Origin: Verrucomicrobiales bacterium
GTDB taxonomy: Bacteria > Verrucomicrobiota > Verrucomicrobiia > Verrucomicrobiales > DEV007
Length of the DNA stretch: 64,000 bases
Direction: 5' to 3'
Assembly (NCBI GenBank): GCA_002726915.1
Contig: PBSY01000007.1
Location: forward strand, 71,698-135,697
Shown: piece by piece, positions 5,194-13,893 of the stretch
How positions within the stretch are numbered: the first letter of the stretch is position 1
Layout: every line of letters begins with the position of its first letter
Program-made: the position numbers and the translations under genes
The notes under the pieces: generated by a model
Databases searched by the model: none
What the model was told of the DNA's origin: nothing
What the model saw: the letters and a program-made list of their open reading frames with translations, nothing else

Positions 5194-6930
5194 ATGTCGA
5201 CTTTCTCACAGTGGCTACTGCTATTTAAGCTTCACACGAAAATCTTCTTCAGAAAAGCGACCATTGTCGCTCGTCATTCACGCCTCATGACAGGGACGAT
5301 TATCGCTTTTCTGATAGCTTACGTGATCGCATCTTTCTGGCTCTTCAGCCAAGGCTTGGACTATGTCAGTACACTTCCCGCCGCGGGATCCCTGCTCAGC
5401 GACCGACTTATCAGCGTGATGTTTTTCTGCTTCATGCTGATGCTGATTTTTTCCGTTTCCATCACCAGCTATATCTCACTCTACCGAAATCGCGACACCA
5501 CCTGGCTACTGAATCTACCCGTCTCCCACCGAGCTATCTTTCTCTGGAAAAGTTTCGAAGCGGCCATGTTTTCGAGCTGGGGGCTGCTTTTTATTCTTGC
5601 TCCACTGCTTGTCGCCTTTGCACAAAATCGCGAGGTCAGCCCCCTTTTTTACGTTCAGGCGCTTTCACTTCTGCTTCCTTTTTTGATGCTCGCCAGCTCG
5701 ACTGGAAGCCTTCTCATGGTTCTCTCGGTGCGATGGCTGAATATGCGGCAGCTTCAGATTACCCTGGGGATCATCATCATAATTCTCATCGGATCTGCAA
5801 CCTTTACTGCAATCGAGGGCCAGAAAGCCGCCGATGAAACCGGGCTCAGTGCAGCGCTGACCTTTCAGCGAGTGCTCCAGCACACCAATATCTCGGTCAA
5901 TCGATCCATGCCAAGCACTTGGTTGGCAGCCTCGCTCATCGACTGGACCCGGCCCTACCGTCATTCCACTAACCTGCTCTACCCCGCGCTGTTGATCAGC
6001 AATTGCCTTATGGCAGGGCTCGCGCTTTTCTGGGCTGGTAACACCGTTTTTTACAAATCCTGGAATCGGTCCCTGCAGCAGGCGGCTTTAGCAGCCGATC
6101 GACGGCAGTCTAAGAGCGATAGCCTAGGCAAACCCGAGAGGCTCAAAACAGGCTCACCGCTATCCCGAATCATTGGTCGGCCCTTGGCCGCTATTTCGAG
6201 AAAAGACTATCTTACCTTTTTCCGCGAACCGGCTCAATGGATTCAATTCTCGGTCGTTTTTGGGCTTCTCGCGATCTATGCTAGCGGCCTTCGTCAGATG
6301 AACCGGGACATCAGCGAACCGAGAGATCTTTACATTGTTGCGTTTCTCAACCTTGCTGTGTGTGCGCTCGCGCTCTCCACACTGACGACTCGTTTCGTTT
6401 TTCCACAATTCAGCCTTGAAGGACGGAAACTGTGGATACTCGCCATGTCACCGTTGAGACTCCCGACAATCGTGACTCAAAAATTCCTCACTAGCACCTT
6501 GTTCAGCGGCGCAGCAGTAATCCTCATTCTCCTCATCGGCGGCTACAATCTCCAACTTGGCGTGAAAGAATCAGTCTTTTTTGCAACCGCCATCACCCTG
6601 CTTGCAATCGGGCTGAACGGCCTTGCTGTTGGGCTTGGTGTGCTTTTTCCCAATCTTGAAGAGTCGAACGCCGCCAAGATTGTTAGTGGATTTGGAGGCA
6701 CGCTGTGCCTCGTTGGGAGCTTCATCTTTATTCTTTGCTTCATGATGCTCCTTGCATACACGCGACTGAGCATATTCACCGAAAATGAGGTTAATCCTCA
6801 CTGGATTGATACGCCGAGAGGCCTCATTGGAACCCTCACTACCCTGATTCTAACATTCATAGTAACCGCGACACCTCTAATTTTTTCGAAAAAAAAGCTA
6901 AAAAGACTGGAAATACTAAGCAATTTATAA
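5194..6930 (+). CDS. putative ABC exporter membrane protein
   Basis: This 578-residue protein has many hydrophobic segments, with groups near residues 30-55, 70-95, 125-200, 260-290, 345-400 and 435-570, and matches the putative ABC exporter permease type (PF16962-like) by its general pattern, including the intracellular motif [15 protein letters not shown] early on. It would form the membrane part of an exporter in the inner membrane. No ATP-binding subunit is encoded next to it, so the partner must be elsewhere or the protein works differently. Two genes for C-terminally anchored membrane proteins follow on the same strand. The start at 5194 is an ATG 62 bases from the divergent purT start. 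Confidence 0.75.
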
Positions 6931-6970: not shown

Positions 6971-7636
6971 ATGTCTGTTGCAGCTGAAATCCAACCCATG
7001 TTCTTCGATGAAGAGGGCGGAAACGACCTCGACATCCAATTTGATCCCCAGCAGTTTGAGGCGGTCACGCCTTACTCAGATGATCTAAACGATGAGTATC
7101 AGCAGGCCCAAGACCAACTTCGGCAGCTCCGCCAGCAAGAAGAACAAATCAAACGTCAGGCAGCTGAACTGGAGGAGCTCACAAAAAGGGAAGAGCAATT
7201 TAAAGAGGGCCGCGTTGATGTCACCGAAGACATTACACGTTACCTGTCCGTTCTCGATCGTGAGTCCACTGAGGCTCAGCGCGTCGCCGAGGAATGTGCC
7301 GCTTCCTACGAACGCCTAGAGGGGCACCTTTCTAATATTAACGCGCTCCATCCCGAAAGCTGGAGCCGCGCTGACCGAAAAACTGAGCTGGCGAGCGCCC
7401 TCAGCTGCATTGAGGCCGCTGAAGATGAGATTGATAATCTCATGCCTCTGGTGAACAGCCTTGGAGTCAAGAAGTCAAGCAGCGGCGGCATTCTTAAGAT
7501 GGGTTCGCCTTCAATGCGACTGAATTCGCCCACACAACAGGGAAACTTTCTCTATTGGCTCCGCAGCGGCTTTGCCTTTTCCCTGCCACTTGTCGCTTTC
7601 GCCGCGATCGCCCTAATTATTGTCTTTCTGCTCTAA
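6971..7636 (+). CDS. coiled-coil protein with C-terminal membrane anchor, unknown
   Basis: The 221-residue product begins with an acidic region (FDEEGGNDLDIQFD), followed by a Gln/Glu-rich predicted coiled coil at about residues 35-80 (QDQLRQLRQQEEQIKRQ), a helical middle section, and a single hydrophobic helix at the very C-terminus (FSLPLVAFAAIALIIVFLL). There is no signal peptide, so the bulk should stay in the cytoplasm with the tail in the inner membrane. It follows the exporter-like gene by 40 bases and precedes another tail-anchored protein. I recognise no family. Confidence 0.75.
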   Translation: MSVAAEIQPMFFDEEGGNDLDIQFDPQQFEAVTPYSDDLNDEYQQAQDQLRQLRQQEEQIKRQAAELEELTKREEQFKEGRVDVTEDITRYLSVLDRESTEAQRVAEECAASYERLEGHLSNINALHPESWSRADRKTELASALSCIEAAEDEIDNLMPLVNSLGVKKSSSGGILKMGSPSMRLNSPTQQGNFLYWLRSGFAFSLPLVAFAAIALIIVFLL

Positions 7637-7714: not shown

Positions 7715-8110
7715 ATGAGTATTTTCCCAAGGTCCCCCAAAAATCGCAAGCGAAGCCGCCTCTCTTCGCGAAAAGATTCCTCGTGGATTGACGATGCCCA
7801 GGAGTTGACTCGCCCAAAACGTGGCAAATCCTGCCCGCGCGAGACTCAGCACAAGTTGCACGCACAGATCGGAGCTATTGAGTCTTTACTAGCCAAGCAT
7901 CATGCCACTGAAGCTCAGCGTGAATTGATGAAGAAGCAGAACATCCTCCCTCCTCCGGATCGTTCCGCCCATAAACGCGCCAAACGAGTGTTGACTCACG
8001 CAGCAAGACGTCGTTACCACGCTGAGCGCAGCATTGCAGGCATGCGCTTCCTTTTCCTTTTCTGCCTAGCCTGCGGAATCGGATGGTGGTTGATCTTCTC
8101 GGGGATCTAA
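7715..8110 (+). CDS. basic tail-anchored protein, unknown
   Basis: The 131-residue product is strongly basic in its N-terminal two thirds (RSPKNRKRSRLSSRK, HKRAKRVLTHAARRR) and ends with a single membrane helix (FLFLFCLACGIGWWLIFSGI). The topology resembles the previous gene: cytoplasmic domain plus tail anchor. A positively charged cytoplasmic part could contact nucleic acid or membrane surface, but nothing in the sequence proves this. It converges on the gene ending at 8149. The start ATG at 7715 is the only reasonable one. Confidence 0.65.
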   Translation: MSIFPRSPKNRKRSRLSSRKDSSWIDDAQELTRPKRGKSCPRETQHKLHAQIGAIESLLAKHHATEAQRELMKKQNILPPPDRSAHKRAKRVLTHAARRRYHAERSIAGMRFLFLFCLACGIGWWLIFSGI

Positions 8111-8148: not shown

Positions 8149-9894
8149 CTATTCGGCGCCCTCTGGTTTTTCAACTATTCCGTTCTTTACTTCCTGCTCC
8201 CGGCACCATCCCTTGATTTCAAGGTCGTTAAAGATTTTACCCATAACCCGACGAAGCAGGCCTTTTAGATTTGCATCTTCGAGCTCAGCAAGGCTGCGGA
8301 CCGCTGTCTCTTTGTAAGTCTCAAGGAGCAAGAGGCACTTGTTATCAGCTTCCACCTCCTGAGCCAAGCGGCGGATCTTATGGATCGAGACATCTTGCAG
8401 ATCTTCGTGGCTCCAAAGCGACTCCAAGAGGTTTTTATCGTCTCCACGTGCCCGCTCACGAGCTACGGCCAGCAATACACTGGGACGCATCTTATCCAGT
8501 TCATTGTCGCCAGCATCCTCACCCAAATCATCCATATCGTCCTGAATCTGATAGGCGATTCCCATGTTCTCAGAAAATTTCTCAAGTACCTCGGAGACCT
8601 CATCGAGGCGTCCTGCATAGCTGGCACCAAGTTTTAGGGCGACCTCGAAAGCAGGAGCAGTCTTCTGACGGAAAATCTCTAGCACTTGCTTGGATTTGAG
8701 CGGCTTAGGGTCGCGAGCCCAGACAAGTTCTGCCCCCTGCCCTCGACAGAGCTCACGTTGTCCCATAGAGGCAGCCATCAACATCTCTCCCTTCTGTGCA
8801 TCAGAGATGCTACTCTCCGCGATCATTCGGTAACCTTCGCCGATCAAAAGATCACCAGCGTTCAATGCAACCGGAATACCATGCTCGACATGAAGCGTTG
8901 GTTGGTCATAACGGCCATGATCTTCATCTTCAATGTCGTCGTGTATCAGTGAAGCCTTATGGAAAAGTTCAGAAGCAAATACGATCTTTTTAATATCATC
9001 AGGAATTGGCTCACCCCGGTCTTCGCGAAGCGCCTGGTAAGCAGCCACGGTTAGATAGGGACGCCACCGCTTGCCGTCTCGCGCAAGCCATTCGCGGGCA
9101 ATCCGCTCTTGGGCGCCTTCTGCCGGCCCCATAATCTCCTCAATCGCTTCAACGCTAAACCAGCTCATTACCTCTTCGTGGAGAGCATTCAGGTCGAGTC
9201 GACGCGTCTTGTCTTCGCTGGTTAGGTGAATGTATTCCCACACCCAATCGTTATCGACCGTAGTGTTGATGCAGTCATCCTGCAGAAGGGGCACGGCGAT
9301 AGATGGGATTGCTGCCGCCTCAACATAAGGAAAGGTGCGCTCTAAAACCGGAAGGCATGAGATCCCTACAATGGCTTCGATCTGCCCTGTTTGGATCAGG
9401 GACATCACAATCGCCGACCCTTCGGCTACAAGGACAGCGTAGCCGAGGCGCTCCGCCTCATTTTGGAAATCTTCGATTGTGCAGAGACCGCATTGCTTAC
9501 AAAGCAGCCCAAATTCGTCGAACGGTGCGGGACACTTATCCTCCACTCGGAGACATTTAGGCATGAGTAGGAGACGCCGCTCAAACGGAATCTCAGCGAG
9601 TGTTTCCCTCCACATCTCGTTATTGAGGCACACGGCCGTGTAGTGAAGGTAGGTCTTCTCACCCTCTCTACCCATTCGCTTGAGGATTTCCTTCGCATGT
9701 TCCTCCAACTCATCCAGTGGCATAGGAGGAACGGGATTGTCCTTCTCCACATACTTTTTGATGTTCTCGAGAAAGTAATCCCTCTCTATCTTGGTCTGCG
9801 GAATATTTTTCTTCGGAGGCCGAAAACGGGTCGTCGTAATCGGAACAGGCTTGGGGACCTTGATGGCCTTAATCGTATCAACTGGGGAAGACAT
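8149..9894 (-). CDS. DUF116 / polyprenyl synthetase fusion protein
   Basis: Two domains share one reading frame. Residues of about 40-245 match DUF116: PKCLRVEDKCPAP, then CKQCGLCTIEDF and GISCLPVLERTF give a cysteine-rich, probably metal-binding domain. Residues from about 270 onward are a trans-prenyltransferase with KRWRPYL near its start, the first aspartate-rich motif SLIHDDIEDED and the second YQIQDDMDDLGED, so both magnesium-diphosphate sites look intact. It should condense isopentenyl diphosphate with an allylic diphosphate, for quinone, hopanoid or carotenoid precursors; the product length is not readable. The track start at 9936 is a GTG, and the ATG at 9894 (MSSPVDTIKAI...) is preferred, giving 581 residues. 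The role of DUF116 is unknown. Confidence 0.9.
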   Translation of the reverse strand: MSSPVDTIKAIKVPKPVPITTTRFRPPKKNIPQTKIERDYFLENIKKYVEKDNPVPPMPLDELEEHAKEILKRMGREGEKTYLHYTAVCLNNEMWRETLAEIPFERRLLLMPKCLRVEDKCPAPFDEFGLLCKQCGLCTIEDFQNEAERLGYAVLVAEGSAIVMSLIQTGQIEAIVGISCLPVLERTFPYVEAAAIPSIAVPLLQDDCINTTVDNDWVWEYIHLTSEDKTRRLDLNALHEEVMSWFSVEAIEEIMGPAEGAQERIAREWLARDGKRWRPYLTVAAYQALREDRGEPIPDDIKKIVFASELFHKASLIHDDIEDEDHGRYDQPTLHVEHGIPVALNAGDLLIGEGYRMIAESSISDAQKGEMLMAASMGQRELCRGQGAELVWARDPKPLKSKQVLEIFRQKTAPAFEVALKLGASYAGRLDEVSEVLEKFSENMGIAYQIQDDMDDLGEDAGDNELDKMRPSVLLAVARERARGDDKNLLESLWSHEDLQDVSIHKIRRLAQEVEADNKCLLLLETYKETAVRSLAELEDANLKGLLRRVMGKIFNDLEIKGWCREQEVKNGIVEKPEGAE

Positions 9895-9960
9895 GTGAGG
9901 TTGGGAGGTCCGTATCAAAACAGTATTCAGTCGCACGCCCTGCAGCGCTAGGCTTGTCAG

Positions 9961-10147: not shown

Positions 10148-10900
10148 CTATTTGAAGGCTTCTTTCGTTGAGGCAACCGCGTAGTCCCGATTGAGCCTCG
10201 CGATAACATCAGCGCTGATCTCTTTCGGGCAAACGGCCTCACACTCATAATGGTTGGTGCAGTTACCAAAGCCTTCGGCGTCCATTTGACGAACCATCGC
10301 GAGAACGCGCTTGTCCTTCTCCGGCTGGCCCTGCGGAAGCAGGTTGAGGTGAGCTGCCTTCGCACCGACAAAAAGCATGGCACTGGCGTTTTTGCATGCC
10401 GCGACGCAAGCACCACAACCAATGCAGGCTGCGGCGTCGAAAGACGAGTCAGCGCTATCTTTGGAAATCGGCAGCGAGTTCGCATCCTGAGCGGATCCTG
10501 TTCTAACCGATATATATCCGCCCGCTGAAACAATTCGATCGAAGGCGGAACGGTCAACAACTAGATCACGTACTACCGGAAATGCTTTTCCTCGGAAGGG
10601 CTCAATCCAGATCGTATCACCGTCCTTGAATTTGCGCATGTGAACTTGGCAGGTCGTGATACCTTTTTCCTTGGAATGAGGCACCCCGTTAATAGTCAAC
10701 GAACACATTCCACATATTCCCTCGCGGCAATCATGGTCGAAGTGAATCGGTTCACCACCACGTTGTACGATCTGCTCGTTCACGATATCCAGCATCTCAA
10801 GGAAAGAAGCTTCGGCAGGAATACTATTCGCCTCGTAGGTTTCAATCGTTCCCGTATCGTTTGCGTGCTTCTGGCGCCATACCTTCAGTGTGAGATTCAT
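10148..10900 (-). CDS. sdhB: succinate dehydrogenase iron-sulfur subunit
   Basis: The 250-residue protein carries electrons from the flavin in SdhA to quinone. The N-terminal plant-type ferredoxin domain shows [12 protein letters not shown] and a later cysteine for the [2Fe-2S] cluster. The C-terminal domain shows [13 protein letters not shown] and [12 protein letters not shown] for the [4Fe-4S] and [3Fe-4S] clusters. The long insertion between the C-terminal cysteine motifs and the general sequence resemble the Bacteroidetes/epsilon-type SdhB rather than the proteobacterial one. It is the last gene of the sdhC-sdhA-sdhB operon, 24 bases after sdhA, and acts at the cytoplasmic face of the inner membrane. 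Confidence 0.97.
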
Positions 10901-10924: not shown

Positions 10925-12919
10925 CTACTTGTAGGAGCGCACTGATTGTTTGACGTTCTCAAAGATGAGTTCTTCCTTGTGAAGGTTAGGCGGAGAGTCA
11001 TCCCCTGTATACTCCCATGCAGCCACGTAGCTGAACTCTTCATCACGGCGCTTAGCCTCGCCCGGGTTTGTATATCCCGAGGTTACCGCATCATCCTTCT
11101 CTGTGAACTGGTATTCCTCACGGAAGTGGCCGCCACAACTTTCTTCCCGACTCAACGCATCGCGGCACATCAGTTCTCCAAACTCTAGAAAATCAGCAAC
11201 GCGACCAGCCTTTTCCAATTCAGCATTTAGGCTTTCACCTGTTCCGGGGATTTTCACGTTCTTCCAAAACTCTTCTCTAATCTTCGGGATTTTCTCAAGC
11301 GCCTCTTCAAGCCCTGCCTTGTCACGAGACATACCACACTTGTCCCAGACCAAGAGCCCTAGCTCGCGATGAAAACTGTCAACGGTTCGCTCTCCCCCTA
11401 TCGAAAGAAGCTTCTCAATGCGATCAGTTACCGCTTTTTCTGCCTCGTCGAATGCCTCGTTTTCGGTCGTCACGCTCCCGGGCACTTGATTCGCAAGATA
11501 GTTGGGAAGTGTAGCTGGGATAACAAAGTACCCATCAGCCAGGCCCTGCATGAGAGCGCTCGCTCCAAGTCGGTTGGCTCCGTGATCAGAAAAGTTAGCC
11601 TCACCAAGAACATGGAGACCAGGCAGGTTAGACATCAAGTTATAGTCCACCCAGAGACCGCCCATGGTGTAATGCACCGCAGGATATATCATCATCGGTT
11701 CCTTGTAGGGGTTGGAGCCCTGAATCTTCTCATACATCTGGAAAAGGTTGCCGTAGCGGGCACGAATGGTGTCTTCGCCAAGGCGGTCGATCGCGTCGCG
11801 GAAATCAAGAAACACTCCAAGTCCGGTAGAAGCGACACCCCGACCTTCGTCACAAACCTCCTTGGCGGACCGGGAGGAAATGTCGCGAGGAGCCAAATTT
11901 CCAAAACTTGGATATTTGCGTTCGAGGTAGTAGTCCCGATCTTCGTCGGGAATGTCTGCAGCGGTCTTAACGCCCTCGCGAATCGCGGCGGCATCTTCCG
12001 CTGAATTAGGGACCCAGATCCGCCCGTCGTTTCGCAGTGATTCCGACATTAAGGTCAATTTACTTTGGTAGTCCCCGCTCACCGGAATGCAGGTTGGGTG
12101 AATTTGAGTGTAACAAGGGTTGGCCATGTAGGCCCCTTTCTTATGAGCCCGATAGGCGGCCATGACGTTACATCCCATTGCATTGGTAGAGAGGAAGAAG
12201 ACGTTGCCATATCCCCCAGTGGCAAGGACGACGGTATCGGCAGCATGCCGCGAAATCTCGCCCGTAACCATGTCTCGAACGATGATACCTTTTGCATGAC
12301 CATCCACAACAACGAGGTCCATCATTTCGGTTCTCGAGTGCATCTCTACCCCTCCTTTCGCTACCTCCTTAGAAAGCGCTTGGTAGGCGCCAATCAGAAG
12401 CTGTTGACCAGTCTGCCCTCGAGCGTAGAAGGTCCGACTAACCTGAGCCCCACCGAAGGAACGGTTATCAAGAAGGCCACCGTATTCACGAGCGAAAGGA
12501 ACGCCTTGCGCCACGCACTGGTCAATGATGTTTCCACTCACCTCGGCGAGTCGATGCACATTAGCCTCGCGGGAACGGAAATCCCCCCCTTTTACGGTAT
12601 CGTAGAACAGACGATAAACCGAATCCCCATCGTTCTGATAGTTTTTGGCCGCGTTGATTCCTCCCTGCGCCGCGATCGAGTGCGCTCGCCGCGGACTATC
12701 TTGATAACAAAAACACTTCACTTGGTAACCAAGTTCGCTGAGCGTAGCCGCTGCTGCTCCGCCAGCGAGGCCGGATCCAACTACGATGATCGAATACTTC
12801 CGTTTATTCGCAGGATTGATCAGCTTTGAATTATTCTTATGGTTGATCCACTTTTCCGCGATCGGGCCGTCGGGGATAGCCGAATTGAATGTTTCGTTTG
12901 AAGATCCGTTAGCTGCCAT
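10925..12919 (-). CDS. sdhA: succinate dehydrogenase flavoprotein subunit
   Basis: The 664-residue protein oxidises succinate to fumarate. The FAD-binding Rossmann motif is [15 protein letters not shown], and [14 protein letters not shown] contains the histidine expected to bind FAD covalently. [12 protein letters not shown] and [19 protein letters not shown] are conserved in the capping and FAD regions. Like the Bacteroidetes and Chlamydia type, it is longer than the E. coli subunit (588 residues). It sits between sdhC and sdhB. Fumarate reductase activity in the reverse direction cannot be excluded from sequence, although the aerobic context favours succinate oxidation. Confidence 0.97.
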
Positions 12920-12960: not shown

Positions 12961-13710
12961 CTAGCGTTTTTCTTCGGTGACATCGGCAATGTCAGTCACA
13001 GGCGTTTCCATTTCATCACTACCGAAACCTGCCACTGAGGCTGCGAGCGGAATGGAGAGAAATCCGAGCCAAAGAGCTACCGATACAGCAAGCCCAAGCC
13101 TGTTAATTGCTTCACTACTTTTACGACTGCGCCACCCTAGGGTTTGAAAGATAGAAGCTATGCCATGAGAGAGATGTGAGCACAGTAGTGAGATACCGAC
13201 AAAGTAAAAAAGGACGACTAACGGTTTCTGGAATCCAACAATCACCATGCCCCAAACATCGTGTCTCCCTGACGACTCCTTCATCCCTGCAAGCTCTGGA
13301 TCGACCCTTACTGTGAAGTGGAAGATGTGGAACACGACAAAAGCAAGAACAGTAAGGCCGCTCCAAATCATCACTCGGGAACTTTTCGAAGCGACGTTGG
13401 TTGCCTCATTTTGGTAATTCTCAACTTTGGCGGCTCGGTTCTGTTTCGTGAGAGCGATAGTCGCCACAATGTGCATGACGAAAGCCACGACCAATACCCC
13501 TCGAAAAATCCAAATGCCTGCTCCGTGGAGAAAGTGATGCAGAAAGTAGGCGTAGTCGTTCATCGCCTCGCGTCCCGCAAAAATCAGCATATTACCTCCA
13601 ACGTGGGCGATTAAGAAGCCGACAAGAACAACGCCCGTAATGGCCACGATTAGCTTTTTCCCAATCGAAGACTGCCAAAATCGGATAATAGCGTTCGTAA
13701 GGGCGTTCAT
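12961..13710 (-). CDS. sdhC: succinate dehydrogenase cytochrome b subunit
   Basis: This is a single, large membrane anchor of the b558 family with about five transmembrane helices, so no separate sdhD is expected. Histidines within or near helices ([53 protein letters not shown]) are candidates for binding two b hemes. It anchors SdhAB and reduces quinone. The track start at 13737 adds nine residues; the ATG at 13710 ([11 protein letters not shown]) is preferred because AAAGAGA lies just upstream. Promoters for this operon and the divergent symporter must lie in the 183-base gap. Confidence 0.92.
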
Positions 13711-13893
13711 TTGCGGTCTCTTTAAGCAATACGCCACGCATTTGCAAGGAGATGGGGTATAAAACCTAGAAAAATTTGCTCTTTCTTGTCATATGACCCT
13801 TTTGTCGCCCTGGTACTCATTTCCCGATACCATCCTGCCCAAAATCTGTTTGCAAAAAGCGACTGCCCTCCGTTAGCATGCCGGAACTGCCCC

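Follow-up and report, generated by a model that had tools for sequence, protein, structure and literature searches.

A single frame joins DUF116 to a prenyl diphosphate synthase

The window analysed here is a 64,000-nucleotide stretch of DNA from a Verrucomicrobiales bacterium (GenBank assembly GCA_002726915.1, contig PBSY01000007.1). On its minus strand, at positions 9894–8149, a single open frame of 581 amino acids encodes a DUF116 domain followed by a trans-prenyl diphosphate synthase domain. An alternative GTG start at 9936 would yield 595 amino acids, and the plus strand of 8149–9894 contains many stops. The genes sdhC, sdhA and sdhB all lie upstream of the fusion on the same strand. The features considered here are the following:

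12961–13737, minus strand: sdhC (cytochrome b558 family), neighbour
10925–12919, minus strand: sdhA, neighbour
10148–10900, minus strand: sdhB, neighbour, adjacent to the fusion in close relatives only
8149–9894, minus strand: DUF116–trans-prenyl diphosphate synthase fusion, 581 aa (Pfam and 98 aligned homologues)
9232–9663, minus strand: DUF116 domain, aa 78–221 (PF01976 and alignments)
8401–9102, minus strand: prenyl diphosphate synthase domain, aa 265–498 by Pfam, with the fold extending to about aa 555 (PF00348, AlphaFold and Foldseek)
within 8401–9102, minus strand: first Asp motif, aa 319–323, and second Asp motif, aa 452–456
8908–8910, minus strand: codon of Tyr329, which stands where the canonical RRG following the first Asp motif has its second Arg

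Both Pfam matches are well above their cut-offs: PF01976 (DUF116) with 120.4 bits against 25 (E 6e-35), and PF00348 (polyprenyl_synt) with 137.7 bits against 27 (E 5e-40). An initial annotation, made from the letters alone, had described the two domains, naming no strand, as lying in one uninterrupted frame with intact motifs; the minus-strand frame and the Pfam matches bear this out, and every motif that it named (PKCLRVEDKC, CKQCGLC, GISCLP, HDDIEDED and QIQDDMDD) is found in the frame.

The fusion recurs across phyla and forms one clade

The fusion is genuine. Eighty loci of separate public genomes encode the fusion protein at 51–97% identity, mostly matched over the full length; nearly all of these loci carry both domains, far above chance, and their records come from Verrucomicrobia, Lentisphaerales, Planctomycetota, Acidobacteria, KSB1 and one Omnitrophota. 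Ninety-eight homologues from Verrucomicrobiota, Lentisphaerota, Planctomycetota, Acidobacteriota and KSB1 align with the same fusion. On a tree that includes canonical synthases of relatives, the fused synthases group together with 100/100 support, apart from the IspA-like and IspB-like enzymes of those relatives. The recurrence at 80 public loci, together with the aligned homologues and the single clade, rules out a frameshift joining two genes, and that an assembly or sequencing artefact fused them is vanishingly improbable. Nor are the domains encoded separately in close relatives, which the initial annotation had named as a finding that would undo its reading: in the genus-mates that have the gene, the fusion is one frame of about 580–610 aa.

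The joining of DUF116 to a prenyl synthase is not new in itself. It was mentioned in 2015 for Psta_0175 (Makarova et al., PMC5898192), which has the same domain fusion by the authors' description; their guess was electron transfer, with a fold like that of flavodoxin. A single example is given there, and the operon with a cyclase and a radical SAM protein described below is not reported.

The synthase domain carries an altered RRG motif

The AlphaFold2 model of the fusion has a pLDDT of 82.6, and Foldseek matches its C-terminal part to GGPP synthases in the PDB (1wy0, E 1.2e-11, TM 0.81 on the target); Ord1 is also among the matches. The domain shares its fold, both Asp motifs, GKRxRP and KT with canonical PF00348 synthases (archaeal and bacterial GGPP synthases, 1wy0, 5jfq). 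Alignment of the fusions indicates that GKRxRP, HKASLxHDDIxD, the KT pair and the second Asp motif are kept almost without exception. The Asp motifs, K275, R276, R278, H312 and K411 are present in 94–100% of fusions, with D452 and D453 kept in 99 of 99 rows and D456 in 94 (Glu in 5). A small residue, Ala or Ser, stands directly before the first Asp motif and an invariant Phe eight residues ahead of it, which points to a product chain longer than C15.

The fusion departs from canonical trans-prenyl synthases in its added N-terminal DUF116 and in the RRG motif, whose second Arg is Tyr in 95 of 99 fusions and Asp in 4. By contrast, Arg-Arg is found in all 26 parsed canonical synthases of relatives, and also in the five closest solved structures among the matches listed. 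We take this second Arg to be a ligand of the IPP diphosphate, as in FPP synthase structures. Since no fusion tested has an Arg there, the acceptor may be something other than IPP, a lead that also sets the scope of our assignment: fold and motifs place the domain among the trans-prenyl diphosphate synthases, a membership that does not extend to use of IPP. The RYG in place of RRG is a natural active-site variant with which to study what, in place of IPP or in addition to it, the enzyme accepts.

DUF116 is a predicted iron-sulphur domain

Seven cysteines of DUF116 (residues 114, 121, 132, 135, 138, 180 and 208) are invariant in the alignments of fused members tested, with the exception of genome G294. 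The same seven positions are common to the standalone DUF116 proteins (COG1852, arCOG02078), which occupy frames of about 150–230 aa that have no synthase. Modelled alone (pLDDT 90), DUF116 is predicted to be a four-stranded alpha/beta domain behind N-terminal helices. Comparison of this fold with the PDB gave no match below E 0.001 (best E 0.067), and it is therefore the cysteines that lead us to infer a bound metal and to predict that DUF116 is an iron-sulphur redox partner domain. A role in sensing metal or redox state, suggested in the initial annotation, fits these near-invariant cysteines, and also the conserved operon that surrounds distant copies, with its many Fe-S and radical SAM proteins.

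Distant relatives encode the fusion in a conserved operon

How widespread the domain pair is had been left open by the initial annotation; it proves widespread, and its copies in distant relatives lie in an operon. We clustered the neighbours of the 80 fusion loci and kept the recurrent same-strand families. In distant relatives the operon comprises a two-cluster ferredoxin (FER), a radical SAM protein (RSAM), the fusion, an alpha-alpha-toroid protein (TOR) and a squalene-hopene-cyclase-like protein with a DxDD motif (SHC-like). The KSB1 locus (L102) has the order cysteine desulfurase, GcvH-like protein, CobW GTPase, a small CxC protein (SML), FER, RSAM, fusion, TOR and SHC-like. The same gene set recurs in Planctomycetota (L103, L108), Acidobacteriota (L107), Lentisphaerota (L110, L112) and Verrucomicrobia (L066, L067), where gene order varies slightly and the set is not always complete; the GcvH-like, CobW and cysteine desulfurase genes are extra in some lineages. 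Divergent Verrucomicrobiota keep the core FER-RSAM-fusion-TOR-SHC, and SML and FER are one protein there (L137:7968–8729, L144:5907–6587 and L145:7215–7853), which supports the two working together.

The residues kept in the partners fit their predicted activities. RSAM has CxxxCxxC and three more cysteines, FER has two four-cysteine sets, the GcvH-like protein keeps the Lys in GFKA and CobW keeps CxCC. The DxDD of the SHC-like protein (D350-A-D352-D353) aligns with that of a solved squalene-hopene cyclase and marks it as a candidate class II terpene cyclase, while its score against TIGR01507 is 124.7 bits, below the curated cut-off of 431.1. The best score of RSAM against the NCBIfam equivalogs was 67 bits (cut-off 650), with none above cut-off among the 25 matches listed, and no tested module member exceeded an equivalog cut-off among the matches listed. 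The solved structures nearest RSAM include the peptide maturase SkfB. The core module contains no class I terpene synthase. A defence system was considered and rejected, PADLOC having returned only generic viperin matches, to RSAM.

The gene combination and operon were not found in the literature searched (subscription papers and preprints lay outside it), where DUF116, COG1852, arCOG02078 and Psta_0175 lead only to PMC5898192. The operon context is the new result, and the pathway is apparently undescribed.

The partners co-occur with the fusion across Verrucomicrobiota

Among 388 Verrucomicrobiota genomes, we counted as carriers those whose DUF116 match lies in a frame of 370 aa or more, 63 at first and 64 with the addition of G294 after inspection, spread over more than twenty families. 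FER/TOR matches were found in 62 of the 64 carriers and 4 of the 324 non-carriers (Fisher p ~2e-64), and RSAM, at E 1e-60, in 58 carriers and no non-carrier (Fisher p ~1e-62), these being counts of genomes and not of independent events, uncorrected for phylogeny. The four non-carrier matches are weak matches to the toroid only, and genomes with standalone DUF116 only have none of FER, TOR and RSAM. Among close relatives, the SHC-like protein is present in families f1, f3, f82 and f83 and absent in f2 and f84, both of which are without the fusion.

Two carriers fall below the FER/TOR threshold. In one (G365), the fusion does have genes for RSAM, TOR and SHC-like next to it. The other, G294 (86% complete), yielded no FER, TOR or RSAM in either search; its fusion (L194, contig C25) has lost three of the seven DUF116 cysteines (132, 138 and 208) and retains every synthase motif. 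This single case suggests that the DUF116 cysteines matter only together with the partners.

The window genome has a split operon and a local succinate dehydrogenase neighbourhood

The operon is split in the genome of the window and could not have been seen from the window alone. The partners are present there at 52–69% identity to the copies of a chimeric query that held no cysteine desulfurase, in small groups: RSAM; TOR with SHC-like; GcvH-like with CobW; and SML with FER. Next to the RSAM gene, and on its strand, lies a gene for a DeoC/LacD-family aldolase (L123:9363–10151). On contig C22 (L125:5099–7624), 6 nt separate the end of a squalene/phytoene synthase gene from the GcvH-like gene, which CobW follows. 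We rejected a place for squalene synthase in the pathway, since almost every relative has one, those lacking the fusion included, and no homologue is near the module at other loci.

In the window itself, the plus strand beside the fusion encodes an ABC_tran_2 membrane protein (5194–6930), followed by two frames without Pfam matches (6971–7636 and 7715–8110); about a dozen close relatives keep this block next to the fusion. On the other side, the end of sdhB lies 253 nt from the ATG of the fusion and 211 nt from the GTG. A scan for read-through from sdhB into the fusion gave nothing above chance, and sdhB is probably outside the pathway of the fusion.

The initial annotation had proposed, from sdhCAB, a tie to quinone synthesis. 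That the fusion supplies a respiratory quinone with its side chain, in connection with succinate dehydrogenase, seems to us very unlikely. The sdh genes do precede the fusion in the window, as they do at 12 related loci, and in one lineage (L066:10781–13698 and L067) the operon is followed on the same strand by genes matching menF, menD and menH, the last assigned by eye. This adjacency to sdh, however, is limited to the group of 12 close relatives and absent from distant loci, with gaps of 190–785 nt where measured, and menaquinone synthesis is not known to involve a cyclase or a radical SAM protein of this kind. Moreover, genus-mates of adequate completeness mostly have three prenyl synthases, IspB-like, IspA-like and the fusion, and relatives without the fusion retain the ordinary ones (f2 genomes have two). 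With an IspB-like gene of about 350 aa also present, the fusion is not the sole long-chain prenyl synthase. Since the IspA-like and IspB-like enzymes are separate genes and the adjacency to sdhCAB is local, we rejected the quinone side chain as the main reading. The earlier interpretation thus stands as to a genuine, widespread fusion and a fitting metal or redox role, and not as to quinones.

A candidate terpenoid pathway

We consider it on balance probable, if by no wide measure, that the protein is a dedicated prenyl diphosphate synthase that supplies a class II cyclase, in a terpenoid pathway that is conserved and apparently undescribed, and that DUF116 is its Fe-S partner. The sequences show the fusion, the one clade that its synthases form, and that it is linked to, and co-occurs with, FER/SML, RSAM, TOR and SHC-like; the reactions, all of them predicted, would run as follows. 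The C-terminal domain would condense IPP with an allylic diphosphate to the long prenyl diphosphate, whose protonation-driven cyclisation would be started by the SHC-like protein, perhaps with TOR, and RSAM would modify the chain or ring. The seven cysteines of DUF116 would hold one or two Fe-S clusters; supplied by FER/SML, the domain could pass electrons to the synthase or the next enzyme, or gate it. Counting against this reading are the loss of the RRG Arg, the lack of a class I terpene synthase in the core, the failure of DUF116 to match any PDB fold significantly and the dispersal of the genes in the window genome. A broader proposal, to which we give slightly less than even credence, is that the five-gene core (SML/FER, RSAM, fusion, TOR and SHC-like) is an undescribed pathway, present in at least five phyla, to a class-II-cyclised and radical-SAM-modified isoprenoid, in which DUF116 would represent a novel kind of Fe-S redox domain that works on prenyl transfer or alongside it.

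The hopanoid and sesquarterpene pathways likewise combine a prenyl synthase with an SHC-family cyclase, and extended hopanoids involve the radical SAM protein HpnH. The module differs from them in a core without squalene synthase, in its additional toroid protein and DUF116, and in an SHC-like protein that scores far below the hopene-cyclase cut-off.

With the second RRG Arg lost, the chief rival is that the synthase domain is a trans-prenyl-synthase-like prenyltransferase acting on an acceptor other than IPP (a peptide, an aromatic or another compound), with SHC-like cyclising and RSAM modifying the product. There is precedent in ComQ, PalQ, ChrPC and Ord1, trans-IDS-like enzymes that use the same fold to prenylate tryptophan, and ChrPC joins prenylation to cyclisation (PMC13290415); the Foldseek match to Ord1 and the proximity of RSAM to SkfB also agree with such a role. 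In these enzymes, however, the second Asp motif is repurposed (PMC13290415), whereas the fusions keep DDxxD almost throughout along with three other canonical IPP-site residues (the Lys and Arg of GKRxRP and His312), and no precursor peptide was found in a non-systematic look. We therefore regard this rival as unlikely, if worth keeping in view. Another idea is that the synthase domain is a non-catalytic sensor of prenyl diphosphates with DUF116 as its output. The altered RRG and the redox-rich neighbourhood would suit a sensor, but both Asp motifs and the Lys and Arg ligands are kept almost without exception and the core module has no regulator, which leaves little probability for it.

On the terpenoid reading, the orphan domain DUF116 is placed in a definite gene set, and an unknown lipid is predicted in common aquatic and soil bacteria; the five genes named are those whose joint deletion or expression would reveal it.

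Several loci vary the module. NapH/NosR-like and NapG-like polyferredoxin genes and genes for PQQ-like propellers flank it in some divergent genomes (L129, L136, L137, L144 and L145), and a membrane electron-supply chain is possible. PQQ-like propellers are common in these phyla, which makes their link to the module uncertain. Where the usual RSAM is not adjacent to the fusion, a larger and different radical SAM protein (about 470–670 aa) is encoded directly before it (L094:4246–5829, and also L106, L109 and L111).
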